In this document: piece by piece, positions 25,269 to 57,239 of the stretch | Position numbering within the stretch: position 1 is the stretch's first letter | Layout of the letters: every line of letters starts with the position of its first letter | Source: Hyphomicrobiales bacterium | GTDB taxonomy: Bacteria > Pseudomonadota > Alphaproteobacteria > Rhizobiales > Methylopilaceae | Assembly (NCBI GenBank): GCA_022842205.1 | Contig: JALHQA010000004.1 | Coordinates: forward strand, 238,501-302,500 | Reading direction: 5' to 3' | Length of the DNA: 64,000 bases | The notes under the pieces: model-generated | Told to the model about the DNA's origin: nothing | Database searches by the model: none | Seen by the model: only the letters and a program-made list of their open reading frames with translations | Translations under genes and position numbers: made by a program

Positions 25269-25967
25269 TCAGGCAGAGGCTTTGAGATCTTCCGGCGGTT
25301 CGCGCAGCACATAACCGCGGCCCCACACCGTCTCGATGTAGTTCTTGCCGTCGGTGGCCGAAGCGAGCTTCTTGCGCAGCTTGCAGATAAAGACGTCGAT
25401 GATCTTCAGTTCTGGCTCGTCCATGCCGCCATAGAGATGATTGAGGAACATCTCCTTGGTTAGTGTCGTGCCTTTGCGGAGCGAGAGCAGCTCCAGCATC
25501 TGGTATTCCTTGCCGGTCAGATGTACGCGGTTACCCGCGACCTCGACCGTCTTGGTATCCAGATTGACCGTGAGATCGCCGGTGTTGATGACCGACTGGG
25601 CATGACCTTTCGAGCGGCGCACGATCGCATGGATACGGGCGACGAGTTCGTCCTTGTGGAAGGGCTTGGTCAGATAGTCATCGGCGCCAAAGCCGAGACC
25701 GCGAACCTTGTCCTCAATACCGGCAAGGCCGGACAGGATCAGGATGGGGGTCTTGATCTTCGCGACACGCAGCGAGCGCAGAACTTCATAACCCGACATG
25801 TCGGGGAGGTTCAGGTCGAGCAGGATGATATCGTAGTCGTAGAGCTTGCCGAGATCGACACCCTCTTCGCCGAGATCGGTCGTATAAACGTTGAAGCTTT
25901 CCGACTTGAGCATCAATTCGATGCTCTGCGCGGTCGCGCTGTCGTCCTCGATCAGAAGCACGCGCAT
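25269..25967 (-). CDS. ctrA: Cell-cycle master response regulator CtrA
   Basis: 232 residues, OmpR-type. The receiver has EDD, the phospho-acceptor in [10 protein letters not shown] and Lys in LTKPF. The winged helix ([31 protein letters not shown] ... [11 protein letters not shown]) is the near-invariant CtrA type. I chose the ATG at 25967 (MRVLLIEDD), the conserved CtrA N-terminus. It controls division, DNA replication and flagellar class II genes. Its upstream region holds a TTAACCAT half-site and multiple GANTC sites. Divergent from fliI. Confidence 0.96.
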
Positions 25968-26005
25968 ATTTGCCCTCCGCCGGTCAGGCCGGCATTCCCC
26001 CAGAC

Positions 26006-26312
26006 GATTCAACGCTACCCGCGAATGGTTAACAGAGTTTGATTCGCGTCGGCAAGCGCCGGGCCGGAAACTTTCAAGCCTATGGAAAACCTCGATTTTC
26101 AGCCTGAAGAAAGTTTTAACGCACCACTTTAGCTTCAGCCCCTAACCGACTCTTCCGACTCACAGCTTCCGGACTTTCCGAGAGGTTCCCGTGGTTAAAT
26201 TTCCGATGCCAAATCATTAACGACCCGCGTAAACGAACCGTTACCATCCACAAGGAATCACGAAGACGCCCAAATTGAGGATTCCGCTGGCGGCGCAGCC
26301 GCAGCGCGAATC
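26006..26312. promoter_or_regulatory. ctrA-fliI divergent regulatory region, GANTC cluster
   Basis: Between ctrA (starts at 25967, minus) and fliI (starts at 26337, plus) there are seven CcrM-type GANTC sites, beginning at 26006, 26041, 26148, 26157, 26255, 26280 and 26308. About one per 256 nt is expected by chance. In Caulobacter, GANTC methylation state regulates the ctrA P1 promoter. Confidence 0.6.
26025..26032 (-). promoter_or_regulatory. CtrA half-site upstream of ctrA
   Basis: The minus strand reads TTAACCAT, the Caulobacter CtrA core. It lies 58 nt upstream of the ctrA ATG. The partner half at 7-nt spacing is ATCA rather than TTAA, so this is a half-site. Autoregulation is the likely meaning. 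Confidence 0.45.
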
Positions 26313-26336
26313 AGCCCCGCGGCGTAAGAAAGAGCC

Positions 26337-27662
26337 ATGAAAGGCCTCATCCAGGCGGCGCGCGACATTCCCGAACGCGAGATCTTCGGCCGCGTCGTGG
26401 CCGTGCGCGGCCTTCTGGTCGAGGTCGCGGGCCCCCTCGGCACGATGGCGGTCGGCGGCCGCATCGACATCGAGGTCGGGCCGGGGCGGCTGGTGCCCTG
26501 CGAAGTCGTCGGCTTCGCCAATGACCGCGCGCTGCTGATGCCGTTCGCGACGCTGGAAGGCGTCCGGCGCGGCTGCAAGGCGCTGGTCGGCTCGGACCAT
26601 GCCGGCATTCACCCCAATCATCACTGGCTCGGCCGCGTCATCAACGCGATGGGCGAGCCGGTCGACGGCAAGGGCCCGCTGGGCGAAGGCCCGCTGCTGT
26701 ATCCGTTCCGCAATGCGCCGCCTTCCGCCCACGCGCGGCGGCGCGTCGGCCCGCCGCTCGATCTCGGCGTGCGCGCCATCAACACATTCCTCACCTGCTG
26801 CCGCGGCCAGCGCATGGGCATCTTCGCCGGCTCCGGCGTCGGCAAATCCGTGCTGCTGTCGATGCTGGCGAAGAACACCGACGCCGATGTCTCGATCATC
26901 GGCCTTGTCGGCGAACGCGGCCGCGAGGTGCAGGAATTCCTGCAGGACGATCTCGGCCCGGAAGGCCTGAAGCGCGCGATCGTCGTTGTCGCCACCTCGG
27001 ACGAGCCCGCTTTGATGCGCCGCCAGGCGGCATACCTGACGCTGTCGCTCGCCGAATATTTCCGCGACGAGGGCAAGGACGTGCTGTGCATGATCGACTC
27101 GATCACGCGCTTTGCCATGGCGCAGCGCGAAGTCGGCCTGTCCGTCGGCGAGCCGCCGACCGCGAAAGGCTACACGCCGACCGTCTTTTCCGAACTGCCG
27201 AAACTTCTGGAGCGGGCGGGGCCGGGTACGGACGAGGGCACGATCACGGGCCTATTCACCGTGCTGGTCGACGGCGACGACCACAACGAGCCGGTGGCCG
27301 ACGCGGTGCGCGGCATTCTCGACGGCCACATCGTGATGGAGCGCTCGATCGCCGAGCGCGGGCGCTATCCGGCGATCAATGTCCTGAAGTCCGTCTCGCG
27401 CACCATGCCGAAGGCGGCCGACCCGAACTATCTGCGCCATGTGATGAAGGCGCGGCAGGTGATGGCGACGTTTTCGGACATGGAGGAGCTGATCCGCCTC
27501 GGCGCCTACCGGGCCGGCTCCAGCCCCGAAGTGGATGAAGCCATTGAATTAAACGGGCCGCTGGAAGCCTTTTTGTCCCAAGGTAAGGAAGAAGCAACCA
27601 CATTGGGGGATGCTTACATGCGATTGTCGCAAATTGTCGGGGTCCCGGAAACCGGGCGCTAA
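26337..27662 (+). CDS. fliI: Flagellar export ATPase FliI
   Basis: 441 residues. Walker A GSGVGKS, Walker [18 protein letters not shown], and the F1-beta-like [14 protein letters not shown] and SVSRTMP motifs. It powers the flagellar type III export apparatus at the cytoplasmic face. ATG at 26337; fliJ follows 25 nt downstream. It sits apart from the fliF-fliN operon, next to ctrA. Confidence 0.95.
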
Positions 27663-31939: not shown

Positions 31940-34060
31940 TTAGATCGCGGCGACCGTTTTCAAACGCGCGCGCGGGTGGATTTCGCCCTGGCTGAGAACC
32001 GGCGTCTGGCTGCGGAAGCGGTCGACGATCGAGCGCACGAAGGGCCGGATCGAGGCCGAGGTGAGAAGCACCGGAACCTCGCCCTGGCGCGCCGCATCCT
32101 CGAAGCGGTCGCGGACGAGGCCGATGAACTCGTGGAGCTTGGACGGCTGCATCGCGAGCTGGCGGTCGTCCGCGGTGCCGACGATCGATTCCTGGAACGC
32201 CTGCTCCCATTGCGGCGAGAGCACGACGAGCGGCAGCGTGCCGTCCGGCGCGGAATATTGCGCGCAGAGCTGGCGCGCAAGGCGCGAGCGCACATGCTCG
32301 GCGATGGAGGCGGGGTTGCGCGTCCAGCCCACGGCTTCGGCGACACCTTCGAGAATGGTGCCGAGATCGCGTATGGACACGCGCTCGCCGAGCAGGAATT
32401 GCAGCACGCGCTGGAAGCTGGTCATGGAAATCTGCGACGGGATGATGTCCTCGGCGAGTTTCGCCTGTTCCTTCGGCATGTCCTTCAGCAGTTTCGCGAC
32501 CTCGCCATAGGACAGCAGCTCGGCCATGTTGGCCTTGAGGATCTCGGTGATGTGGGTCGAGAGCACGGTCGGCGCGTCGACCACGGTGTAGCCGCGCACG
32601 GTCGCTTCCTCGCGCAGCGCGCCGTCCACCCAGGTCGCCGGCAGGCCGAAGGTCGGCTCGGTGGTGTGATGGCCGGGCATGGAGATCTGGTGGCCGGACG
32701 GGTCCATGACCATGAACTGGCCGGGGAACACCTGGCCGGCACCCGACGGCGTCTCCTTGACCTTGATGATGTAGTTGTTGGCGCCGAGATGGACATTGTC
32801 CAGAAGTCGCACCGACGGCATGACGAAGCCCATGTCGGCGGCGAACTGGCGGCGCAGCGCCTTGATCTGCTCGGTGAGGCGGTCCTGGCCTTCCGGGCCG
32901 TCGACGAGCGGCAGGAGACCGTAGCCGAGCTCGATCTTGAGATCGTCAATACGAAGGGATTCCGAGATCGGCTCCTCGGCCGGGGGAGCTGCGGCCGCGA
33001 CCGCCTCGACCTGCGCGGTGCGCGCGGCTTCGGCGAGAACGGCGCGGTTGGTGCGGTCCACCTTCCAGGCGAGATAGCCGGCGCCGCCCGCGAGCACGAG
33101 GAAAGGCAGGGCGGGAATGCCGGGCAGGAGGGCGATGAAGCCGGTGACGGCGGCCGACATGCCGAGCGCCTTCGGATAGCCCGACAGCTGGGTCATCAGC
33201 GCCTTGTCGGCGGAGCCGGATACGCCGGCCTTGGAGACGAGCAGGCCGGCGGCGGTCGAAACGACGAGCGCGGGGATCTGGGTGACGAGGCCGTCGCCCA
33301 CCGTCAGCAGCGTGTAGGTGGCGCCCGCTTCGCCCATCGACATGTCGTGCTGCGCCATGCCGATGATGATGCCGGCGACGACGTTGATGACAGTGATGAG
33401 AAGGCCGGCGACGGCGTCGCCGCGCACGAATTTCGAGGCGCCGTCCATGGCCCCGAAGAAGGAGCTTTCGTCCTCGAGGTCCTTGCGGCGGCGGCGGGCC
33501 TCGGCCTCGTCGATGAGGCCAGCGGAGAGGTCGGCGTCGACCGCCATCTGCTTGCCGGGCATGGCGTCGAGGGTGAAGCGGGCCGCGACCTCCGCGATGC
33601 GGCCGGAGCCCTTCGTGATGACGACGAAGTTCACGATGACGAGAATCGCGAACACGATGATGCCGATGACGAAATTTCCGCCCATGACGAAATGGCCGAA
33701 GGCCTCGATGACGTGGCCGGCGGCGGCGGTGCCGTTCTGGCCTTCCGACAGGATGAGGCGCGTCGAGGCGAGGTTGAGCGCGAGGCGCATCATGGTCGCG
33801 ACGAGCAGCACGGTCGGGAAGGCGGAGAATTCGAGCGGCTTCTGGATGAACAGCGACGTCATCAGGATGAGGACGGAAAAGATGATTGAGAACGCCAGGA
33901 ACATGTCGAGCATGACCGGCGGCAGCGGCATGATCAGCACGACAAGGATCGTCAGGACGCCGATGGCGAGGCCGAGATCGCTCCTTTTGACGAAAGCGAT
34001 GAAATCGCCCGCGATCTGACGCGGAGCGTTGGCTCCGCTCGCGGCGCTGATATCGGCCAT
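31940..34060 (-). CDS. flhA: Flagellar export apparatus protein FlhA
   Basis: 706 residues. About eight membrane segments in the first 330 residues with the conserved FHIPEP-family loop (LVTQIPALVVSTAAGLLVSKAG), then a large cytoplasmic domain. It forms the export gate that binds chaperone-substrate complexes. I chose the ATG at 34060 (MADISAAS) because AGGAG lies 5 nt upstream; the frame is open further upstream. It is transcribed apart from other fli genes and has its own ftr and CtrA-type elements. Confidence 0.95.
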   Translation of the reverse strand: MADISAASGANAPRQIAGDFIAFVKRSDLGLAIGVLTILVVLIMPLPPVMLDMFLAFSIIFSVLILMTSLFIQKPLEFSAFPTVLLVATMMRLALNLASTRLILSEGQNGTAAAGHVIEAFGHFVMGGNFVIGIIVFAILVIVNFVVITKGSGRIAEVAARFTLDAMPGKQMAVDADLSAGLIDEAEARRRRKDLEDESSFFGAMDGASKFVRGDAVAGLLITVINVVAGIIIGMAQHDMSMGEAGATYTLLTVGDGLVTQIPALVVSTAAGLLVSKAGVSGSADKALMTQLSGYPKALGMSAAVTGFIALLPGIPALPFLVLAGGAGYLAWKVDRTNRAVLAEAARTAQVEAVAAAAPPAEEPISESLRIDDLKIELGYGLLPLVDGPEGQDRLTEQIKALRRQFAADMGFVMPSVRLLDNVHLGANNYIIKVKETPSGAGQVFPGQFMVMDPSGHQISMPGHHTTEPTFGLPATWVDGALREEATVRGYTVVDAPTVLSTHITEILKANMAELLSYGEVAKLLKDMPKEQAKLAEDIIPSQISMTSFQRVLQFLLGERVSIRDLGTILEGVAEAVGWTRNPASIAEHVRSRLARQLCAQYSAPDGTLPLVVLSPQWEQAFQESIVGTADDRQLAMQPSKLHEFIGLVRDRFEDAARQGEVPVLLTSASIRPFVRSIVDRFRSQTPVLSQGEIHPRARLKTVAAI

Positions 34061-34240: not shown

Positions 34241-34259
34241 CCCGGCAGAATTTGCCGGG
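34241..34259. promoter_or_regulatory. FlbD-type (ftr) palindrome upstream of flhA
   Basis: CCCGGCAGAATTTGCCGGG: 7-bp perfect arms around a 5-nt centre. It is nearly identical to the elements in front of fliF (56523-56541) and fliK (57120-57136). It resembles Caulobacter ftr sites bound by FlbD, and flbD is present in this window. Confidence 0.75.
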
Positions 34260-34266
34260 CGCATGG

Positions 34267-34281
34267 TTAATGCGGAGTTAA
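34267..34281. promoter_or_regulatory. CtrA box upstream of flhA
   Basis: TTAA-TGCGGAG-TTAA is a perfect TTAA-N7-TTAA CtrA site. It is separated from the ftr palindrome by exactly 7 nt and overlaps the stop codon of the upstream hybrid kinase gene. Confidence 0.75.
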
Positions 34282-35993
34282 GTCACGGGTGACAGGCGGA
34301 CGACATTGGAGTCCTGAGCCTCATTCAGGCTCAGAATGCCGGCTATTTTCTCGCCAAGTTCGCTTTCCACGAAGGGCTTATGCACGATCCGGTCTTCGCC
34401 CGCCGCGATAAGCGCCTTGGCGTCGGCATAGCCGGTCGCGAACAGAACCGGGAGTGAAGGCCGGCGCGCCAGGATCTCACGTGCCACCTCGGCGCCGTTC
34501 ATACCCGGCATCGCGAAGTCGAGCAGAACCAGATCGACTTTCGCCAGATCATCCAGCGCTTCAAGGGCAGAGCCGCCGCTGCCGGCCTCGACCACGCGGT
34601 ATCCCAAATCATGGAGGATTGAACTCGTGACCTCGCGTACCGCGCTGTCATCATCGACCAACAGGATGACGGCATCGCCCGTACGACGTTTCGCTGGCGC
34701 CGGCGAAGGTGGCGAAGCTGGCAAAACCTTCTCTTCCGCGCGCGGCAGAAAGAGTTTGACGGAGGTACCTTCGCCAACCGTGGTGTCGATACGAATCCCG
34801 CCGCCGGACTGTTTGGCGAGGCCAAGAACCTGGCTGAGACCGAGGCCGGAGCCTTTTCCGACCTCCTTCGTGGTGAAGAACGGCTCAAATGCCTTGGCAA
34901 GAACCTCAGGCGGCATGCCCGAGCCGGTGTCGCTGACGGAGACGACAACATACTCGCCGGGCTGCGGCTCCTCGGGCAAGCTCTGCGTTTCAACGACGGC
35001 ATTGCTGGTCTCGACCGCCAGAGTACCGCCGACCGCCATGGCATCGCGCGCGTTGATCGCAAGATTGAGAATGACCAGTTCGATCTGGGTCGGATCAATC
35101 ATTGCGGGCCAAAGTCGCGGCGCGAGAACGGTTTCGATCCGCACACTTCCGCCCATCGTGCTTTGAAGCAGATCGCGCATGCTGGTGACGGTTTCGTTCA
35201 AGTCGACGGCGCGCGGTTCGAGTTTCTGCCTTCGTGAAAAAGCCAGCATTTGCGCGGTCAGCTTGGCTCCGCGTTCCGCGGCTTCCGCCATCATGGTCAG
35301 GCGGCGGACCTGACCGGGGTCGGATGCCTGTTTCTGCATCTGCCGCACATTGCCCAGCACCACCGTCAGCAGGTTGTTGAAGTCGTGCGCGACTCCGGAC
35401 GTCAACTGACCGACGGCTTCCAGCCGCTGTGCCTGGCGGAGAGCCGATTCAACTTTCTCACGCTCGACGATCTGGGCGGCGAGCTGACGGTTAGCAGCCG
35501 CAAGCTCGGCCGTACGTTCCTCCACGCGCCGCTCAAGCAATTGCTCCCCCCGCCTGATCTCATCCAGGCGTTCGCGAGCTTCATACTGCCGCAATCGGCC
35601 CCGAAAGGCTGTCCTTACGACACTCACGAGCGTCGTGGGATGAAATGGCCGCTCGAGGAAGCTGACATTGCCGAGCATCGTGGACAGACGCTTGGCGCTC
35701 GGATTCCGTTCCAGGCCGCCACCGCGTTGCGACAGGATGACAAAGGGAAAGTCCGACCACGCCGGTTGGCCGTCGATCCATTCCGACAGTTGCGACAAAT
35801 CCACGTTCTGGAGGGCCTCTTCGACAACGATGGCAGCGGCAGAGCCTTCCGCGATGCGCATGCACAAATCGGCGAGATCGTCGCAGACCAGCGCGCGGAT
35901 ATCGGCTTCGCGCAGGATCGTCGCGGCAATCTGAGCGTCGCGTCCGGCAGGCGCGAGGATCAGAACGCGTTCAGATAACGAGCCCCCAATCAT
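34278..35993 (-). CDS. Hybrid histidine kinase with N-terminal pseudo-receiver
   Basis: 571 residues. Residues about 10-130 fold like a receiver but carry VVEEA where the phospho-Asp strand is expected. Next come a coiled coil (135-190), HisKA with His203 in SGVAHDFNNLLT, HATPase (NLAINARDAM, DTGSGMPPE, GLGLSQV), and a C-terminal receiver with Asp in LVLLDFAMPGMNG and KPF. No membrane segment, so cytosolic. The start overlaps the stop of the KaiC-like gene, indicating a functional pair in which KaiC-like ATPase activity may feed the kinase. Confidence 0.9.
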   Translation of the reverse strand: MIGGSLSERVLILAPAGRDAQIAATILREADIRALVCDDLADLCMRIAEGSAAAIVVEEALQNVDLSQLSEWIDGQPAWSDFPFVILSQRGGGLERNPSAKRLSTMLGNVSFLERPFHPTTLVSVVRTAFRGRLRQYEARERLDEIRRGEQLLERRVEERTAELAAANRQLAAQIVEREKVESALRQAQRLEAVGQLTSGVAHDFNNLLTVVLGNVRQMQKQASDPGQVRRLTMMAEAAERGAKLTAQMLAFSRRQKLEPRAVDLNETVTSMRDLLQSTMGGSVRIETVLAPRLWPAMIDPTQIELVILNLAINARDAMAVGGTLAVETSNAVVETQSLPEEPQPGEYVVVSVSDTGSGMPPEVLAKAFEPFFTTKEVGKGSGLGLSQVLGLAKQSGGGIRIDTTVGEGTSVKLFLPRAEEKVLPASPPSPAPAKRRTGDAVILLVDDDSAVREVTSSILHDLGYRVVEAGSGGSALEALDDLAKVDLVLLDFAMPGMNGAEVAREILARRPSLPVLFATGYADAKALIAAGEDRIVHKPFVESELGEKIAGILSLNEAQDSNVVRLSPVT

Positions 35994-37486
35994 TGCGGCG
36001 GCTTATCCAACAGGGTTTCGCGCTGGCCGACGAAGTCCGGAACGCCCCGCAGCACCCCCTGGAACCCCTGCAAGGGCTCGCCAAGCGTGAGGCCGCGGTT
36101 GTCGATCTCGAACTCACGGATCGTTTTTTCGTGCAAGCCCGCACGTTTCTTGATGATCGACATGGCGCGACGGACCTGTCCGTGGGCCTCGAAATACCTC
36201 AATAGAATGACGGTGTCGGCCAGGTAGGTCACATCGACAGGCGTCTTCATGTCGCCGACAAGTCCATGCTGCGCGACTGTCAGGAGGGTGGTGGCACCCT
36301 GCCGATTCAGATACTGCAGCAGCTCGTGTATGTGCAGCACAAGGAAGTTCTCTTCCGGCATGGCCGCCTGGTAACCGTTGAGACTGTCGATGATGATCGT
36401 CTTGATATCGAACTTGTCGACACATCCGCGAACGGTCGCACTGAATTCGCCGGGCGAAAGTTCGGCGGCATCAATCTGGAAGATTTTCAGCCCTCCGCTT
36501 TCCACCAGTTTTTCGAGATCGACCCCGAGAGTGCGCATCCGGAAGTGAAGGAGACCGATCTCTTCATCGAAGATGAACATCGCGGCCTTCTCTCCCCGGG
36601 CAATCGCGGCAACCGCAAACGCCATCGCGACAAGAGATTTGCCGGTGCCGGCCGGCCCGAGAACAAGGGCACTCGATCCGCGCTCGATCCCGCCGCCGAG
36701 AAGGGCATCCAAAGCGGCATTTCCACTCGATATGGGTGTGCGATCGAAATGGGTTCTGTGTTCCGCCGCGACCAGGCGCGGATAAATTTCAATTCCGCCC
36801 GTCTTGATTTCGAAATCGTGATATCCGCCCCGGAAACGTCGGCCGCGATACTTGATGATACGTACACGCCTGCGTTCGGCGCCGTACTCCGGAGCCAGTT
36901 CCTCCAGCCGCACCACACCGTGGGCGACACTGTGAACGGTCTTGTCCTGGCTGTTGCTGGTCATGTCGTCGAGCAGCACAACCGTCGCCCCGTACCTCGC
37001 GAAGTAGTGCTTGAGCGCAAGCACCTGACGGCGATAGCGCAGAGAACTTTGCGCGAGCAGCCGAATCTCCGAGAGGCTATCGACCACAATGCGATGAGGC
37101 TGGTACTTTTCGATCGCTTCGAAAATCAGCCGGGTGGTCTCGCCAAGTTCCAGGTCCGAAGAATACAGAAGGCTTTGCTGCTGGTTCTCATCAAGGAGGC
37201 TTTCGGGCGGAACCAATTCAAAGATATCAATTCCATCAAGGCTCCAGCCGTGTGACTTGGCGCTTTCCCGGAGTTCTTCTTCGCTTTCCGAAAGTGTGAT
37301 GTAGAGCCCGCGTTCTCCCGCCCGTGTGCCCTCCATAAGAAAGCTCAAGGCAGTTGTCGTCTTGCCCGTGCCGGGACTGCCTTCAAGCAGGTAGACGCGG
37401 TCCCGCTGCAAGCCGCCGGACAGAATATCATCAAGGCCCGCGATGCCCGTGCCTGCCTGGCCGCCGAGCGTCTGAGTTTTTTGCAC
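35990..37486 (-). CDS. KaiC-like double-domain ATPase
   Basis: 498 residues from a GTG start. Two RecA-like KaiC domains: first P-loop GSPGTGKT (residues 36-43) with SESEEEL, and second P-loop GPAGTGKS near residue 278 with FIFDEE. Walker B strands are RIVVDSLSEI and TIIIDSLNG. Length is slightly shorter than cyanobacterial KaiC. No kaiA or kaiB is nearby. It is coupled through ATGA to the hybrid histidine kinase. It probably acts as a signalling or timing ATPase module, as described for KaiC-kinase pairs; clock function is not implied. Confidence 0.9.
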   Translation of the reverse strand: MQKTQTLGGQAGTGIAGLDDILSGGLQRDRVYLLEGSPGTGKTTTALSFLMEGTRAGERGLYITLSESEEELRESAKSHGWSLDGIDIFELVPPESLLDENQQQSLLYSSDLELGETTRLIFEAIEKYQPHRIVVDSLSEIRLLAQSSLRYRRQVLALKHYFARYGATVVLLDDMTSNSQDKTVHSVAHGVVRLEELAPEYGAERRRVRIIKYRGRRFRGGYHDFEIKTGGIEIYPRLVAAEHRTHFDRTPISSGNAALDALLGGGIERGSSALVLGPAGTGKSLVAMAFAVAAIARGEKAAMFIFDEEIGLLHFRMRTLGVDLEKLVESGGLKIFQIDAAELSPGEFSATVRGCVDKFDIKTIIIDSLNGYQAAMPEENFLVLHIHELLQYLNRQGATTLLTVAQHGLVGDMKTPVDVTYLADTVILLRYFEAHGQVRRAMSIIKKRAGLHEKTIREFEIDNRGLTLGEPLQGFQGVLRGVPDFVGQRETLLDKPPQ

Positions 37487-49151: not shown

Positions 49152-51479
49152 ATGTCAGCGCGTCCGACACTGATTTCGATCGATTCCTTTCCGCTCGCCG
49201 GGCAGCGCAACGCCTGGATGGAGGCGCTCGCCTCCGTCGATCTTGTCTGCCGGCTGCCGGAAGGCGCGGCGCCCACCGGGGAGGTCGGCATCATGCGCTC
49301 GCCCGGAGGTTCGGCGCTGACGCGCCTGCGTTCCTCGGCGCAGCAGGTGACGAGCACGGGCGCCGGACCCGGGCGCGGCACGGAACCGCTTGTCGTGACA
49401 TTCCACACGCACGGGCGCGGCACGCTGCGCGGCGGACAGCCGGGCCGCGAATTCGCCGAGGGCGATGTGTCGATCGCCGACCGCGCGCAGCCCTTCACCT
49501 TCGACCTGCGCGAGGAATTCGAACTCCTGATGCTGGAAATTCCGCGCGAACGGCTGCTGGCGCGGCTGGGGCGCGCACGCATCCAGCTACCGGCCGTGCT
49601 GGGCGCGACGGTGGCCGCCGCGGCGGTGCGGCCGGTGATGCGGACGCTGGCGCTGCATTTCGAACAGATCGGCGACGGCGACCTGACGTCGGCGGAAATC
49701 GCGGTGACGGAACTCATCGCCGGTGCGCTGCTCGGCGAGGCGCGGCTGAAGGATGACGGCACGACGCAGACGCAGGCGGCGCATTTCCGCCGCGTGACGG
49801 CGGCGATCGAGGTGCGGCTCGTCGATCCCGATCTGTCGATGGCGGCGATCGCGACGCAGGAGGGCCTGTCGCAACGCTATATCCAGAAGCTGTTCGAGCT
49901 CCAGGAGATGACGTTTTCCGACTATGTGCGCCAGCGCCGGCTCGACCGCGCGCGGCTCGATCTCGCCGATCCGCGCCATAATGCGGACGGGGTTGCCGAG
50001 ATCGCGTTCCGCTGGGGGTTCCGCGATCCGGCGCATTTCAGCCGCGCGTTCAGCGCCGCATACGGCGTTTCACCCCGCGCGTTCCGCGCCGCGATACCGG
50101 ACGAGCCGCGCAATCTTTTGCGGCGTGGGCGGCCGCTGGAAAAGGGCATGCCGCAAAATGCCGTCGTTACGCTGCCGGGCGCCGAGGAGCGCGTGGCGGA
50201 ACTTCGCGCGCGCGCCGGCGTCTCCGCGCGCCCAAGGAGCGACGAGCGGCGCATCGAGGTCGGCAAGGACAATGTGCATTGGGGCTATCTCAGCCGCTCC
50301 ATCCCGCCGGTGCTGCGCGTTGAATCGGGCGCGGAGGTGGTGATCGAGACGCTGACGCAGCACGCCTATGATGACTATGAGCGGATGATAAAGGGCGATG
50401 CGGCCGCCGAAAGCGTGTTCGCCTGGACCAAGGACGAAAAGGCCGTCGACCGGCGCGGCGCCGGGCCGATGAATGCCAGCATTCTCGGCCGCGGGGCCGG
50501 GGAGGGCTTTGGCGTACATATCTTTACCGGGCCGGTGTTCGTGAACGGCGCGGAGCCGGGCGATGTGCTCGAAGTGCAGATTCTCGATATCGAGCCGCGC
50601 CCAAGTGCGAACCCGGACTTCGAGGGCCGGTGTTTCGCATCGAACGTCTCGGCGTGGTGGGGCTATCAGTATTCCGATCTTCTCGGCGAACCGAAGCCGC
50701 GCGAGATCGTGACCATCTACGAAATGGAACCCGACGGCGATTTCGCGCGCGCGCTCTATTCCTACAAATGGACACCGCAGGTCGACCCGTTCGGCGTGCG
50801 TCATGACACGATGGATTATCCCGGCGTGCCCGTGGACCACGCCAGCGTCGAGAAGCTGTGGAACGTGATGCCGAACATACGCGTGCCGCTTCGCCTGCAT
50901 TTCGGCTGCATGGCGGTGGCGCCGCGCGAGGCGGACCTGATCGATTCCATTCCGCCCGGCTATTTCGGCGGAAACTTCGACAATTGGCGTGCCAGCAAGG
51001 GATCGACGCTCTATCTGCCGGTCGCAGTGCCGGGAGCTTTGTTTTCGGTCGGCGACGGCCATCTGGCGCAGGGCGACGGCGAAATCAACGGCACGGGACT
51101 CGAAGCGTCGTTAACGGGGCGCTTCCGCTTCATCGTGCACAAGCGCGACAAGACGGAGAAAGCCTATCTCAACGGCCTGAACGGCCCGTTGCTGGAAACG
51201 CCAGACGAGTTCGTGCTGCACGGCTTCAGCTATCCGAACTATCTGCGCGATCTCGGCCGCAACGCGCAGTCGGAAATCTACAAGAAGTCCTCGCTGTCGA
51301 AGGCGCTGCGCTCGGCGTTTCGGTCGACGCGCAAATTCCTGATGGACGCATGGGGCCTTAGCGAGGACGAGGCGCTGTCCTTGATTTCGGTCGGTGTCGA
51401 TTTCGGTGTGACGCAGGTCGCGGACGGCAACTGGGGCGTCCACGCCGTCATCCGGAAATCGATGTTCGACCGCGCCTAG
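49152..51479 (+). CDS. AraC-family regulator fused to an acetamidase/formamidase domain
   Basis: 775 residues from ATG 49152 with AGGAGG 5 nt upstream. Residues about 1-195 are an AraC-type sensor domain (VVTFHTHGRG, EFAEGDVSIAD). Residues 212-315 are a double HTH (IATQEGLSQRYIQKLFE; IAFRWGFRDPAHFSRAFSAAYGVSPRAFR). A linker leads to a full amidase domain (365-775) with VHWGYLSRSI, FTGPVFVNGAEPGDVLEV, GGNFDNWRASKGSTLYLPV and GDGHLAQGDGE, so the catalytic signature is kept. No internal start or frameshift separates the parts. It is a candidate autoregulatory trigger enzyme; that is inference. Confidence 0.9.
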   Translation: MSARPTLISIDSFPLAGQRNAWMEALASVDLVCRLPEGAAPTGEVGIMRSPGGSALTRLRSSAQQVTSTGAGPGRGTEPLVVTFHTHGRGTLRGGQPGREFAEGDVSIADRAQPFTFDLREEFELLMLEIPRERLLARLGRARIQLPAVLGATVAAAAVRPVMRTLALHFEQIGDGDLTSAEIAVTELIAGALLGEARLKDDGTTQTQAAHFRRVTAAIEVRLVDPDLSMAAIATQEGLSQRYIQKLFELQEMTFSDYVRQRRLDRARLDLADPRHNADGVAEIAFRWGFRDPAHFSRAFSAAYGVSPRAFRAAIPDEPRNLLRRGRPLEKGMPQNAVVTLPGAEERVAELRARAGVSARPRSDERRIEVGKDNVHWGYLSRSIPPVLRVESGAEVVIETLTQHAYDDYERMIKGDAAAESVFAWTKDEKAVDRRGAGPMNASILGRGAGEGFGVHIFTGPVFVNGAEPGDVLEVQILDIEPRPSANPDFEGRCFASNVSAWWGYQYSDLLGEPKPREIVTIYEMEPDGDFARALYSYKWTPQVDPFGVRHDTMDYPGVPVDHASVEKLWNVMPNIRVPLRLHFGCMAVAPREADLIDSIPPGYFGGNFDNWRASKGSTLYLPVAVPGALFSVGDGHLAQGDGEINGTGLEASLTGRFRFIVHKRDKTEKAYLNGLNGPLLETPDEFVLHGFSYPNYLRDLGRNAQSEIYKKSSLSKALRSAFRSTRKFLMDAWGLSEDEALSLISVGVDFGVTQVADGNWGVHAVIRKSMFDRA

Positions 51480-52831
51480 GCGGCCTGGCCGGCCTGCGGC
51501 GGCGGCACCGGCACGCCCTCCGCATGGTACTGGTTCAGCTTGTTCCTCAGCGTACGGATGGAAATGCCAAGAATATTCGCGGCATGGGTCCGGTTGCCGA
51601 GACAATGGTTGAGTGTGTCGAGGATCAGCGCGCGCTCGACGGCTTCGACTGTGAGGCCGACCAGATTGCGCGTCACGGCTTCGGCGGCGAGAGCGGCCTG
51701 CTGGGCCGGGCCGGAGGCCTGGTCCATACGCGCGCCGTCCGGCTGGCGAATGGCGTCGATTCCGATCTCGTCGCCCTGCGCCAGAAGCACGGCGCGGTGG
51801 ATGGTATTTTCCAGCTCGCGAACGTTTCCGGGGAAGCGCGCCTTCGCCAGTTCCTTCGCGGCTTCCGCCGAAATGAGCCGGTAGGGCAGGCCGTTCGACT
51901 CGGCGAATTTGCGGGCGAAATGCTCGGACAGGACGATGATGTCCTGCGGGCGCTCGCGCAGCGGCGGAATGCGCAGGTTCATGACGTTGAGTCGGTACAG
52001 CAGGTCCTCGCGGAACGTGCCCTTCTTCACTTCGTCCGACAGATTGCGGTTCGAGGTGGCGAGGATGCGGATGTTCACGGGGACGGGGCGCTGGCCGCCG
52101 ACACGGTCGATGACGCGTTCCTGGATGGCGCGGAGCAGCTTGGCCTGCAGCCGCGCATCCATTTCGGAGATTTCGTCGAGCAGCAGCGTGCCGCCGTCCG
52201 CTTCCTCGAATTTGCCGATGCGGCGCGCGACGGCGCCGGTGAACGAGCCTTTCTCGTGGCCGAACAGTTCGGACTCGAGAAGCTGCTCGGGAATGGCCGC
52301 GCAGTTGATGGAGATGAAGGGGCGGCCGGCGCGGTTCGAGCGCGCATGGATGTAGCGCGCGAGCACTTCCTTGCCGGTGCCGCTTTCGCCGGTGATGAGG
52401 ACGGAGGCGTCGGATTTCGCGATCTGCGCCGCGAGATCGACCACGGCCTTCATCGCATCGTCCTTGAAGACGATGTCGTGGCGGTCTTCGGCGACGGCGG
52501 CGAGCACGGCCGCGATCAGTTCCGGGTCGGGCGGAAGCGGTATGTACTCCTTGGCACCGGCGTGGATGGCGGCGACGGCGGCCTTGGCGTCGTTGTCGAT
52601 GCCGCAGGCAACGAGCGGCACATGAATGCGCTCCTCACCGAGCATGCGGACGAGATCTCGGATCGGCTGCCCGACATCGACCATCAGGAGATCGGCGCCA
52701 CGCCCCGCACGCAGGACACGCATGCACTGATCGACATCTTCGGCGTGGGTGACCTTGGCGCCGCGATCCATCGCGATCTTGCTCGCCTGCGTCAGCTGGC
52801 CCGACAGTGTTCCGACAATCATGAGCCGCAT
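51476..52831 (-). CDS. flbD: Sigma-54 activator FlbD
   Basis: 451 residues. The receiver-like domain lacks the acidic pair at its N-terminus (MRLMIVGTLSG). The AAA+ domain has Walker A TGESGTGKE and a sigma-54 loop reading GSFTGA instead of GAFTGA. A Fis-type HTH ends the protein (NRTHAANILGISIRTLRNKLNQY). FlbD binds ftr palindromes and activates class III flagellar genes while repressing fliF. It is the last gene of the fliF operon and its stop overlaps that of the fusion gene by 4 nt. Confidence 0.9.
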   Translation of the reverse strand: MRLMIVGTLSGQLTQASKIAMDRGAKVTHAEDVDQCMRVLRAGRGADLLMVDVGQPIRDLVRMLGEERIHVPLVACGIDNDAKAAVAAIHAGAKEYIPLPPDPELIAAVLAAVAEDRHDIVFKDDAMKAVVDLAAQIAKSDASVLITGESGTGKEVLARYIHARSNRAGRPFISINCAAIPEQLLESELFGHEKGSFTGAVARRIGKFEEADGGTLLLDEISEMDARLQAKLLRAIQERVIDRVGGQRPVPVNIRILATSNRNLSDEVKKGTFREDLLYRLNVMNLRIPPLRERPQDIIVLSEHFARKFAESNGLPYRLISAEAAKELAKARFPGNVRELENTIHRAVLLAQGDEIGIDAIRQPDGARMDQASGPAQQAALAAEAVTRNLVGLTVEAVERALILDTLNHCLGNRTHAANILGISIRTLRNKLNQYHAEGVPVPPPQAGQAA

Positions 52832-54861: not shown

Positions 54862-56478
54862 TCACGCGGGTTCCGCCAGCCACTGGCGGATGATGGAAAC
54901 GGTTTCGTTCGGATTGCGCTCGGCGAGTTCACCGACCTTGGCCAGCGACTGCGCGTGGACCTTGCCGTTGACCTGCGCGATCTCGATCATGCGCGCGGTG
55001 GGTTCCGGCGAGCCTAGGGCGGGCGCGGCGGGCGAGGCGGGCGCGGCCAGCCCCGCCGGAGCTTCCTGCACCGCACGCGGGTCCGCCGTCAGGGCGCGGC
55101 GCACGAGCGGGCGGACGACGAGGAACAGGACGAGCAGCGAGACGATGCCGAGCACGGTCAGCTCGATGAGCCGCATCAGATCTTCCTTGGTGACGCCCAA
55201 CAGTCCGAGGCCGGAGGCGTCGGCGATCGGCGTGATGCCGGGCGGTTCGGCGAAGCGCAGGTTGACGACCTCGATCTGATCGCCGCGGCCCTGGTCGAAA
55301 CCGATGGCCGAGCGCACGAGAGCGGCGATGCTGTCGAGCTCTTCCTGGGAGCGGGGAGCGTAGGTGACGGAGCCGGACTGATCGTTCGAGTAAATACCGT
55401 CGACGAGAACGGCGACCGAGATCTTCTTGAGACGGCCGGCTTCGAGGACCTCGGTGCGCGTGGTGCGCGAAATCTCGTAGTTGACGGTTTCATCGGTCTT
55501 CGACGCGGTCTCGCGGTTGTTGCCGCTCTCGGCGTTGTTCTGCTGGTTCGGCAGTTCGTTGGCGACCGAAACGGTGGCCTGGCCTTCGGTGGAGTCGCTT
55601 TCTTCCTCGCGCGTCTGCGTCGAGCGGATGACGCGCGATTCCGGATCGAACAGGTCGGCGGTGTTGGTGACCTTGGAATAGTCGAAGGCGGCGTTGATCT
55701 CGGCGCGGGCGCGGCCGGGGCCGACGACACGCTCGACGATGCCCTGGACCTGATCCTTCATGCGCTTTTCGAAAGCGGCCTCGCGCTCGAGCGCGCCGGC
55801 CGGAAGTCCGTCCTCGCCCATCGAGGCGCCATCGGCGAGCAGGCGTCCGGACTCATCGACGATCGAGATCGCCTGCGGGTCGAGACCCTGAACCGCGGAG
55901 GCGACGAGATGCACGATGGCGCGGACCTGGCCCTGGCCGAGATCGCCCGACACGCGGAGCACGATCGAGGCCGTGGGTTTCGGCGCATCGCGCGCGAACA
56001 GCGGCCGCTCGGGAATGACGAGATGGACGCGGGCAGCGCCGACACGATCGAGCGAGCGGATGGAGCGGGCGAGTTCGCCTTCGAGCGCGCGCAGGCGGTT
56101 TACGTTCTGCAGAAAGCTCGTGGAGGACAGCCCGTCGCCCTTGTCGAAGATTTCCCAGCCGACGCCGCCGCCCGCGGGCAGCCCCTGTTCGGCCAGTTTC
56201 ATCCGGATACGGGCGACCTGATCGGCGGGAACCAGAATGGCGGTGCCGTCGCGCGTCGTCTGATAGGGGATGGCCTGGGCTTCGAGTTCCTTGATGACGG
56301 CCGAGGAGTCCTGGAGCGTCAGGTCGGCGAAGACCGGCACCATGCCGGAATCCGACACGCGCATTGCGACGAAACCGAAAAATCCGACGAGAGTGAGCGT
56401 TACGGCCAGCATGGCCGTCAGGCGCGGGGCGCCGAGGCCTTTCAGAAAATCCAGAATCCCACCCAAAGTCTGCCCCAA
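54862..56478 (-). CDS. fliF: Flagellar MS-ring protein FliF
   Basis: 538 residues. Two membrane helices (about 22-42 and 440-460) flank a periplasmic ring domain (GWEIFDKGDGLSSTSFLQNVNRLRALEGELARSI, ARVHLVIPE). The initiator is a TTG at 56478; no ATG or GTG is close. It heads the fliF-fliG-fliH-fliN-flbD operon and lies 45 nt downstream of an ftr palindrome and a CtrA box. Confidence 0.94.
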   Translation of the reverse strand: MGQTLGGILDFLKGLGAPRLTAMLAVTLTLVGFFGFVAMRVSDSGMVPVFADLTLQDSSAVIKELEAQAIPYQTTRDGTAILVPADQVARIRMKLAEQGLPAGGGVGWEIFDKGDGLSSTSFLQNVNRLRALEGELARSIRSLDRVGAARVHLVIPERPLFARDAPKPTASIVLRVSGDLGQGQVRAIVHLVASAVQGLDPQAISIVDESGRLLADGASMGEDGLPAGALEREAAFEKRMKDQVQGIVERVVGPGRARAEINAAFDYSKVTNTADLFDPESRVIRSTQTREEESDSTEGQATVSVANELPNQQNNAESGNNRETASKTDETVNYEISRTTRTEVLEAGRLKKISVAVLVDGIYSNDQSGSVTYAPRSQEELDSIAALVRSAIGFDQGRGDQIEVVNLRFAEPPGITPIADASGLGLLGVTKEDLMRLIELTVLGIVSLLVLFLVVRPLVRRALTADPRAVQEAPAGLAAPASPAAPALGSPEPTARMIEIAQVNGKVHAQSLAKVGELAERNPNETVSIIRQWLAEPA

Positions 56479-56522: not shown

Positions 56523-56541
56523 CCCGGCAGAAATTGCCGGG
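56523..56541. promoter_or_regulatory. FlbD-type (ftr) palindrome upstream of fliF
   Basis: CCCGGCAGAAATTGCCGGG differs at one position from the flhA element at 34241-34259. In Caulobacter the FlbD site at fliF represses transcription. Confidence 0.75.
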
Positions 56542-56548
56542 TGAGCGG

Positions 56549-56563
56549 TAAATGCCGGGTTAA
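56549..56563. promoter_or_regulatory. CtrA box upstream of fliF
   Basis: The minus strand reads TTAA-CCCGGCA-TTTA, one mismatch from TTAA-N7-TTAA, 7 nt upstream of the ftr palindrome. fliF is CtrA-activated in Caulobacter. Confidence 0.65.
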
Positions 56564-57042: not shown

Positions 57043-57119
57043 ACTGGGATGCGTTGAACTTCAGGGGTTTACCGGGGATGGCCGTAAAGACGAGGCGAGG
57101 CGGGCAGGTCTTGCCGTGT

Positions 57120-57136
57120 CCGGCAGTTTCTGCCGG
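57120..57136. promoter_or_regulatory. FlbD-type (ftr) palindrome upstream of fliK
   Basis: CCGGCA-GTTTC-TGCCGG, with the same arms as the fliF and flhA elements. It is about 90 nt upstream of a sigma-54-type promoter, the classical enhancer distance. Confidence 0.7.
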
Positions 57137-57224
57137 GCATCACACGCCGGAGCCATGGCGGGCAGGCTCGGGCCTAAAGATAATTTTCTATAACAATCAG
57201 ACAGATAGGCGGTTGCGCCCGAAC

Positions 57225-57239
57225 TGGAACAAGGCTTGC
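57225..57239 (+). promoter_or_regulatory. Sigma-54 promoter of fliK-flgD
   Basis: TGGAACAAGGCTTGC: the -24 GG and -12 GC are exact with the right spacing. The predicted start of transcription is near 57250, 18 nt before the fliK ATG. Confidence 0.7.

Follow-up and report, generated by a model that had tools for sequence, protein, structure and literature searches.

A CtrA box and an ftr palindrome at a fixed 7 nt spacing as a predicted promoter module of early flagellar operons in Hyphomicrobiales

In the stretch of 64,000 nucleotides of Hyphomicrobiales DNA analysed here (the window), a CtrA site, a 7 nt gap and an ftr palindrome are found upstream of flhA and again upstream of fliF. Judged from the sequence and by analogy with studied promoters, this module is very probably a CtrA-activated class II promoter with an FlbD operator over its −10/+1 region, on which assembly-activated FlbD would act as an off-switch. 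The module is real, conserved and functional-looking, and of a known kind. The sequence, geometry, conservation, dependence on the presence of FlbD and operon layout were computed here; binding, the start site, the −10 position, repression and control by FliX are what we infer, with repression and FliX control carried over from C. crescentus.

The module and its surroundings in the window

On the minus strand the flhA module runs from 34281 down to 34241 as TTAACTCCGCATTAA-CCATGCG-CCCGGCAAATTCTGCCGGG and the fliF module from 56563 down to 56523 as TTAACCCGGCATTTA-CCGCTCA-CCCGGCAATTTCTGCCGGG (Table 1). Both genes are early genes, for the export apparatus and the MS ring, respectively, and lie directly downstream of their modules. 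An earlier note on this DNA, made from the letters, had described an identical module at the two loci. Its coordinates and parts at 34241–34281 (palindrome, 7 nt, TTAA-N7-TTAA) are all correct. In the second copy, at 56523–56563, the palindrome and the 7 nt gap are as described, but the CtrA box is not an exact TTAA-N7-TTAA: its plus-strand form, TAAATGCCGGGTTAA, has one mismatch to that pattern and reads TTAA-N7-TTTA on the transcribed strand. The centres of the two palindromes differ, as do the two gaps; order and spacing are identical and the sequence only nearly so, which makes the word slightly too strong for fliF. The note had also placed the palindrome before the CtrA box, which is true of the plus strand. 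Because flhA and fliF both lie on the minus strand, the functional order is the reverse, with the CtrA box first and the ftr palindrome between box and gene.

The flhA box, a predicted CtrA full site upstream of the gene, is the only exact match to TTAA-N7-TTAA in the window (0.03 expected). Its first half-site contains the TAA stop codon of the kinase gene upstream. In relatives the first four bases of the gap are kept as CCAT, an extended CtrA half-site, and the last three are kept weakly. That the fliF box is a decayed CtrA site was considered and rejected, since relatives have T at the mismatched position in 39 of their 50 fliF modules, so that most of these carry the TTTA form. Translation of flhA likely starts at the ATG at 34060, which is preceded by GGAG.

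Table 1. Features of the module, its regulators and the contrasting fliK promoter in the window (positions of the whole stretch).
Feature	Position	Strand	Remarks
ftr palindrome at flhA, plus-strand reading CCCGGCAGAATTTGCCGGG	34241–34259		Read on the letters
7 nt gap, flhA module	34260–34266		CCATGCG on the minus strand, CGCATGG on the plus strand
CtrA box at flhA, plus-strand reading TTAATGCGGAGTTAA	34267–34281		Read on the letters
CtrA full site, flhA promoter, TTAACTCCGCATTAA on the transcribed strand	34267–34281	−	Kept in relatives
ftr palindrome at flhA, putative FlbD operator, CCCGGCAAATTCTGCCGGG	34241–34259	−	
flhA (flagellar export apparatus)	31940–34060	−	TIGR01398, 903 bits
CtrA site, fliF promoter, TTAACCCGGCATTTA	56549–56563	−	
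7 nt gap, fliF module, CCGCTCA	56542–56548	−	TGAGCGG on the plus strand
ftr palindrome, fliF promoter, CCCGGCAATTTCTGCCGGG	56523–56541	−	Counterpart of C. crescentus ftr4
fliF (MS ring)	54862–56478	−	TIGR00206; first of the fliF-fliG-fliH-fliN-flbD run; start codon provisional
flbD	51476–52831	−	NF050807, 800 bits (cut-off 750); end of the fliF-fliG-fliH-fliN-flbD run
ctrA	25269–25967	−	NF045991, 426 bits (cut-off 350); beside fliI
Two tandem ftr cores (57103–57115, 57122–57134)	57103–57134	+	Activator-type layout before fliK-flgD; outside the module
σ54 −24/−12 motif TGGAACAAGGCTTGC	57225–57239	+	Sole window match to TGGNNC-N4-YTTGC

All three regulators are encoded in the genome, with FliX (PF10768) outside the window; the fliN gene of the fliF-flbD run was identified by PF01052. 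Upstream of flhA, at 34278–37486, the window holds a hybrid histidine kinase gene (34278–35993) and a KaiC-like gene (35990–37486) on the same strand with overlapping ends. The divergent interval between ctrA and fliI (25967–26337) contains TTAAC matches near 26028, 26116, 26194 and 26217 and a one-mismatch CtrA box at 26105, which makes CtrA autoregulation and control of fliI from this interval possible.

Exact matches to the pattern CCGGCA-N5-TGCCGG number three in the window; with up to two mismatches there are 16 (mean of 8.5 in shuffles). In the 2.78 Mb genome the exact pattern is found six times, compared with once for a reversed-pattern control. Three further exact palindromes of the genome (C2, C5 and C6) have no CtrA box within 45 nt on either side. 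The genome-wide pattern search that the earlier note had suggested returned the composite of both sites, at up to three mismatches, only at flhA, fliF and flgB (reversed control: one match with the TWAA pattern and none with the TTAA pattern). Frequent occurrence outside flagellar promoters, which the note had considered damaging to its reading, is not seen, all three matches being at flagellar genes. The third copy, TTAACGCGGGATTAA-CCATACA-CCCGGCAATTTCTTCCTA, is located outside the window, some 30 nt ahead of flgB, with fliO and fliP on the divergent side (L009), and the right arm of its ftr palindrome is degenerate. FlbD would probably block flgB as well; the case is weaker because of this degenerate arm and because in C. 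crescentus CtrA reportedly acts as a repressor of flgB.

Occurrence, spacing and gene arrangement in relatives

Across 199 genomes of the order (taken to be Hyphomicrobiales), which are related and enter all counts and p-values uncorrected for kinship and not as independent events, the composite was found at up to three mismatches in 110. It is present in 93 of the 115 genomes with FlbD (FlbD+; 105 over the NF050807 cut-off and ten just below it or partial) compared with 17 of the 84 without (FlbD−), and absent at this threshold from 22 of the FlbD+ genomes. The number of sites per genome is 1.57 in the FlbD+ group, compared with 0.19 for the reversed control, and 0.25 compared with 0.21 in the FlbD− group, i.e. 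at background. With both regulators encoded in the window and the module tracking FlbD in this way, the assignment of the two sites to CtrA and FlbD that the earlier note had made is well supported at the level of sequence.

Of the matches, a subset of 30 loci was fetched (L010–L039), 24 from FlbD+ and six from FlbD− genomes. The flagellar placement of the module is borne out by 22 of the 24, which lie at flhA (nine), flgB (ten), fliO/fliP (two) and fliF (one), the exceptions to class II placement being L014 and L030. None of the six FlbD− loci lies at a flagellar class II gene. L014 (G165:C12) is a good composite located about 1.5 kb from flbD, before an ORF that on inspection by eye resembles LysE; the flhA match of that genome is fragmentary only.

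To assess the spacing, all CtrA boxes with no more than one mismatch were paired with all ftr cores in the 600 nt upstream of flhA or fliF. In these regions, which like those of the conservation sets come from the first 180, some of them picked after composite matches had been seen, a gap of exactly 7 nt was found in 34 of 67 flhA regions and 50 of 70 fliF regions of FlbD+ genomes, and the mean over 20 rounds of dinucleotide shuffling was 0.0 at this gap. The next commonest gaps at fliF, 6 and 19, had seven pairings each, some of which may be second readings of one promoter. For flhA these first regions are largely replaced by an enlarged set, in which 49 of all 109 FlbD+ regions carry the module. 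For fliF the enlarged set, a non-random draw of 88 of the 114 FlbD+ genomes besides the window's own, has the module in 64 regions and in 68 when one ftr mismatch is allowed; the other 20 lack it at the 7 nt distance even so. In several fliF regions without the module at this distance the geometry persists, with one half of the CtrA site weaker. In 28 hand-chosen FlbD− genomes that keep flhA or fliF, the module was found in none of 43 regions (0/23 for flhA and 0/20 for fliF).

Whether flhA carries the module depends strongly on where the gene lies. The flhA set comprises 109 of the 114 FlbD+ genomes besides that of the window, with one flhA each and second copies excluded; G002, G089, G156, G165 and G192, for which no full flhA match was listed, were left out. 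When flhA is away from flbD (at least 450 nt from it, on the other strand or on another contig; flhA–flbD gaps were copied by hand), the module is present in 46 of 51 genomes, a class that includes 26 genomes with flhA coded elsewhere, on the other strand or on another contig, where broken assemblies may hide the true neighbourhood. When flhA lies directly behind flbD it is present in three of 58. The window follows this rule, its flhA being 17 kb from flbD. An flhA gene directly behind flbD might be read from the fliF promoter. The presence of the module when flhA is away, and its usual absence behind flbD, suggests that shut-off of this export-gate gene by FlbD is under selection; the module appears to occur mostly where an early flagellar operon needs a promoter of its own.

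Five detached flhA genes depart from the rule. Three (L106, L123 and L330) belong to one family (f12), and the contig of L330 also ends early. L337, from the window's own family, has a detached flhA without the module, and L125 has its box and ftr core one base closer together. Five genomes of the f12 family have a TTTA-N7-TTAAC box followed by GGCGGCAAACTTTGCC at the same spacing (G011:C54:106445, G059:C34:12283, G096:C210:1892, G156:C97:1440 and G128:C24:3401), and three of the five have a detached flhA without the module.

Promoter geometry and the proposed role of FlbD

CtrA full sites begin near −35 (−39 at C. crescentus ctrA P2; PMC4287350), and transcription starts in R. sphaeroides lie 23–24 nt after the CtrA box (PMC6180460). 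Transferred from these species, the geometry of the two papers would place the ftr palindrome, at flhA and in the module generally, over about −17 to +2, with its centre near −8. The ftr4 site of C. crescentus has its centre near −8 relative to the start of fliF. According to the mechanism that we propose, CtrA would bind TTAA-N7-TTWA around −35 and recruit the housekeeping RNA polymerase, thereby starting transcription of the operon at a late stage of the cell cycle, while the ftr palindrome 7 nt further on would overlap the −10 element and the start site and serve as the FlbD operator. Once the MS ring, switch and export apparatus have been built, FliX would stimulate FlbD, which would then bind ftr and block access of RNA polymerase to the promoters of fliF, flhA and probably flgB; the same FlbD would activate σ54 promoters such as that of fliK, where tandem ftr sites lie some 100 nt upstream. 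The constancy of the gap would follow from both sites having to fit a single RNA polymerase footprint.

The pattern of conservation in relatives is consistent with this geometry. Conservation extends from the box through CCAT to the end of the palindrome and drops off immediately beyond it, leaving no other −10 candidate at a conserved place downstream. Furthermore, the fliF palindromes are directional: in the arm nearer the CtrA box C27 is kept in 24 of 70 regions and lost in 46, compared with 63 of 70 for its mirror position, G35, and in the core C32 occurs without G30 in 30 regions and the reverse in one (p = 3.6e-12 for the arm and 3e-8 for the core, uncorrected for kinship). In this count positions 27 and 35 were unconstrained on either side; the constancy of A28 and T34, which were part of the search pattern (one mismatch allowed), is partly selected and was not used as evidence. 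The bias points to a constraint beyond the palindrome, as expected if part of ftr doubles as the −10 element; symmetric binding of a dimer would not produce it by itself. At flhA the asymmetry of the left arm is absent (C27 in 50 of 51 and G35 in 47 of 51) and that of the core is weaker (13 versus 2, p = 0.0074). At the predicted −10 place no AT-rich stretch was seen in CtrA boxes that lack ftr, a control sample of only 12 sites.

A bolder reading, which we hold to be rather unlikely, would make the module an assembly-checkpoint cassette that is gained and lost, needed by early operons that leave the fliF-flbD transcript, with the −10 element inside the FlbD operator and a strict register held by direct contacts between CtrA, FlbD and polymerase. 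In its extreme form CtrA and FlbD would touch at the centre-to-centre distance of 24 bp, one displacing or locking the other.

The fixed spacing might instead reflect direct contact of FlbD and CtrA on the DNA, in a cooperative or handover complex to which promoter geometry would be secondary. Across families the gap hardly ever departs from 7 nt, and the sites lie side by side with their centres 24 bp apart, as would suit such a complex. The directional asymmetry of the ftr core, however, fits a −10 element, and Azospirillum (L242) and Pelagibius (L238) have their ftr-like sites on the opposite flank of the CtrA box, which shows that a fixed contact does not hold everywhere; nor is an FlbD–CtrA contact reported in the accessible portions of the literature searched. 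We regard direct contact as unlikely. The cooperative or competitive binding of the two proteins put forward in the earlier note accordingly gives way to the placement of both sites in one promoter, which would explain the fixed gap better; since the two sites do not overlap, direct competition is not required.

That the palindrome is the target of FlbD and not of another regulator, for example another NtrC-type protein with a merely phylogenetic link to FlbD, is suggested by the survey, in which the module is strong with FlbD and at background without it. Proteins of the NtrC type that match the FlbD model at an E-value of 0.001 occur in all 199 genomes, the counts are uncorrected for kinship and the pairing of palindrome with FlbD was made from sequence. 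Yet the 28 FlbD− genomes have the module at none of 23 flhA and none of 20 fliF regions despite their other NtrC-type proteins, and another regulator seems to us very unlikely.

The window also offers an internal contrast to repression by FlbD. The region 57103–57239 has a textbook-like layout for an FlbD-activated promoter, with fliK (PF02120) and flgD (PF03963) downstream of its tandem ftr cores. A single genome thus seems to employ one type of FlbD site in two arrangements: as a pair some 100 nt upstream of a σ54 promoter, at fliK, and singly, 7 nt behind a CtrA box, at flhA and fliF. FlbD belongs to the σ54 activator family, and the same core serves the fliK promoter, which might lead one to expect FlbD to activate flhA and fliF too. 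The single match to the σ54 pattern in the window is at fliK and none is near flhA or fliF, for which σ54 activation was rejected; there, one ftr lies over the inferred promoter in place of paired sites about 100 nt upstream, and FlbD represses fliF in C. crescentus. Activation by FlbD at flhA or fliF is therefore highly improbable, and repression of a CtrA-activated promoter remains the reading that we adopt. Although the motifs are short and the genome is GC-rich, chance resemblance of the two sites has a negligible probability, being refuted by the shuffles (0.0 at 7 nt) and the FlbD− regions and contradicted by the presence of the module at 49 of 109 flhA and 64 of 88 fliF regions of FlbD+ genomes.

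Relation to known flagellar promoters

The closest known system is fliF with ftr4 in C. crescentus, where FlbD represses fliF at ftr4 (PMC3930126) and the activity of a fliF-lacZ fusion rises on deletion of fliX (PMC3096577). The likeness extends to the gene, both regulators, the order of the sites and the 7 nt gap, the last by way of Caulobacter sp. D5 (L235), in which fliF is preceded by TAAAGTCGGCGTTAA-CCATCGA-CTGGGTAAATCCTGCCTAG, likewise with a single ftr palindrome just 3′ of the CtrA site. The window differs in that its palindrome is more perfect and in that the cassette is also found at flhA and, in degenerate form, at flgB; in Caulobacter sp. D5 flhA lies directly behind flbD without the module. 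The principle is already published, as PMC3930126 states that early flagellar genes in general are inhibited by FlbD, and FlbD sites have been mapped in Caulobacter by Fumeaux et al. (cited in PMC12421884). In Methylosinus sporium a 'Motif 3' has been described at flagellar starts (PMC12403871). In the literature searched, as far as its accessible portions go, we found no description of the composite at flhA or flgB, of the strict geometry across the order or of the operon rule. The kind of promoter is thus known from Caulobacter fliF/ftr4, to which the copies at flhA and flgB would add new members.

Other systems share part of the layout. The ftr enhancers of the σ54-dependent class III genes of C. 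crescentus have the same FlbD core, and the fliK promoter of the window fits them, but there the ftr sites come in pairs, about 100 nt upstream, and a CtrA box is missing, whereas the flhA and fliF modules have a single ftr and no σ54 motif. In the CtrA-activated fla2 promoters of R. sphaeroides the CtrA box lies 23–24 nt before the start, and the accessible portion of the account describes no ftr element (PMC6180460). At the flgB/fliO pair of C. crescentus, a shared CtrA site is reported to activate fliO and repress flgB (PMC6180460). In the genome studied here the box similarly lies between divergent flgB and fliO, but on the flgB side an ftr half-site follows 7 nt after it, and we infer activation, the opposite of C. 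crescentus. Composites facing both ways are found at flgB/fliO in some relatives (for example, G002, G014 and G032).

The single-promoter on/off logic of Caulobacter would accordingly be a cassette kept in many Hyphomicrobiales as well as in Caulobacterales, and one that extends to flhA and flgB. Its consensus could be used to find FlbD-repressed operons in unstudied genomes, and the module offers a direct test of the reason for the fixed 7 nt gap.

Among 15 FlbD loci examined in named records, called here by their record titles, 13 hold the start of fliF and ten of these have the 7 nt module at up to three mismatches: Caulobacter sp. D5, two Brevundimonas, Roseibium, Parvibaculum, Phreatobacter, Pseudorhodoplanes, a Hyphomicrobiales MAG, an uncultured alphaproteobacterium and a record titled Bordetella. 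This identifies the fliF module as a Caulobacter-type fliF promoter. The record titled as a Bordetella MAG (L233) has a fliF-flbD-flhA region of alphaproteobacterial type, and its label is probably wrong. A Hyphomonadaceae locus (L240) has a shifted form of the fliF module. In Pelagibius and Azospirillum the ftr-like palindromes at fliF lie upstream of the CtrA box, which suggests a different regulatory layout outside the main group.
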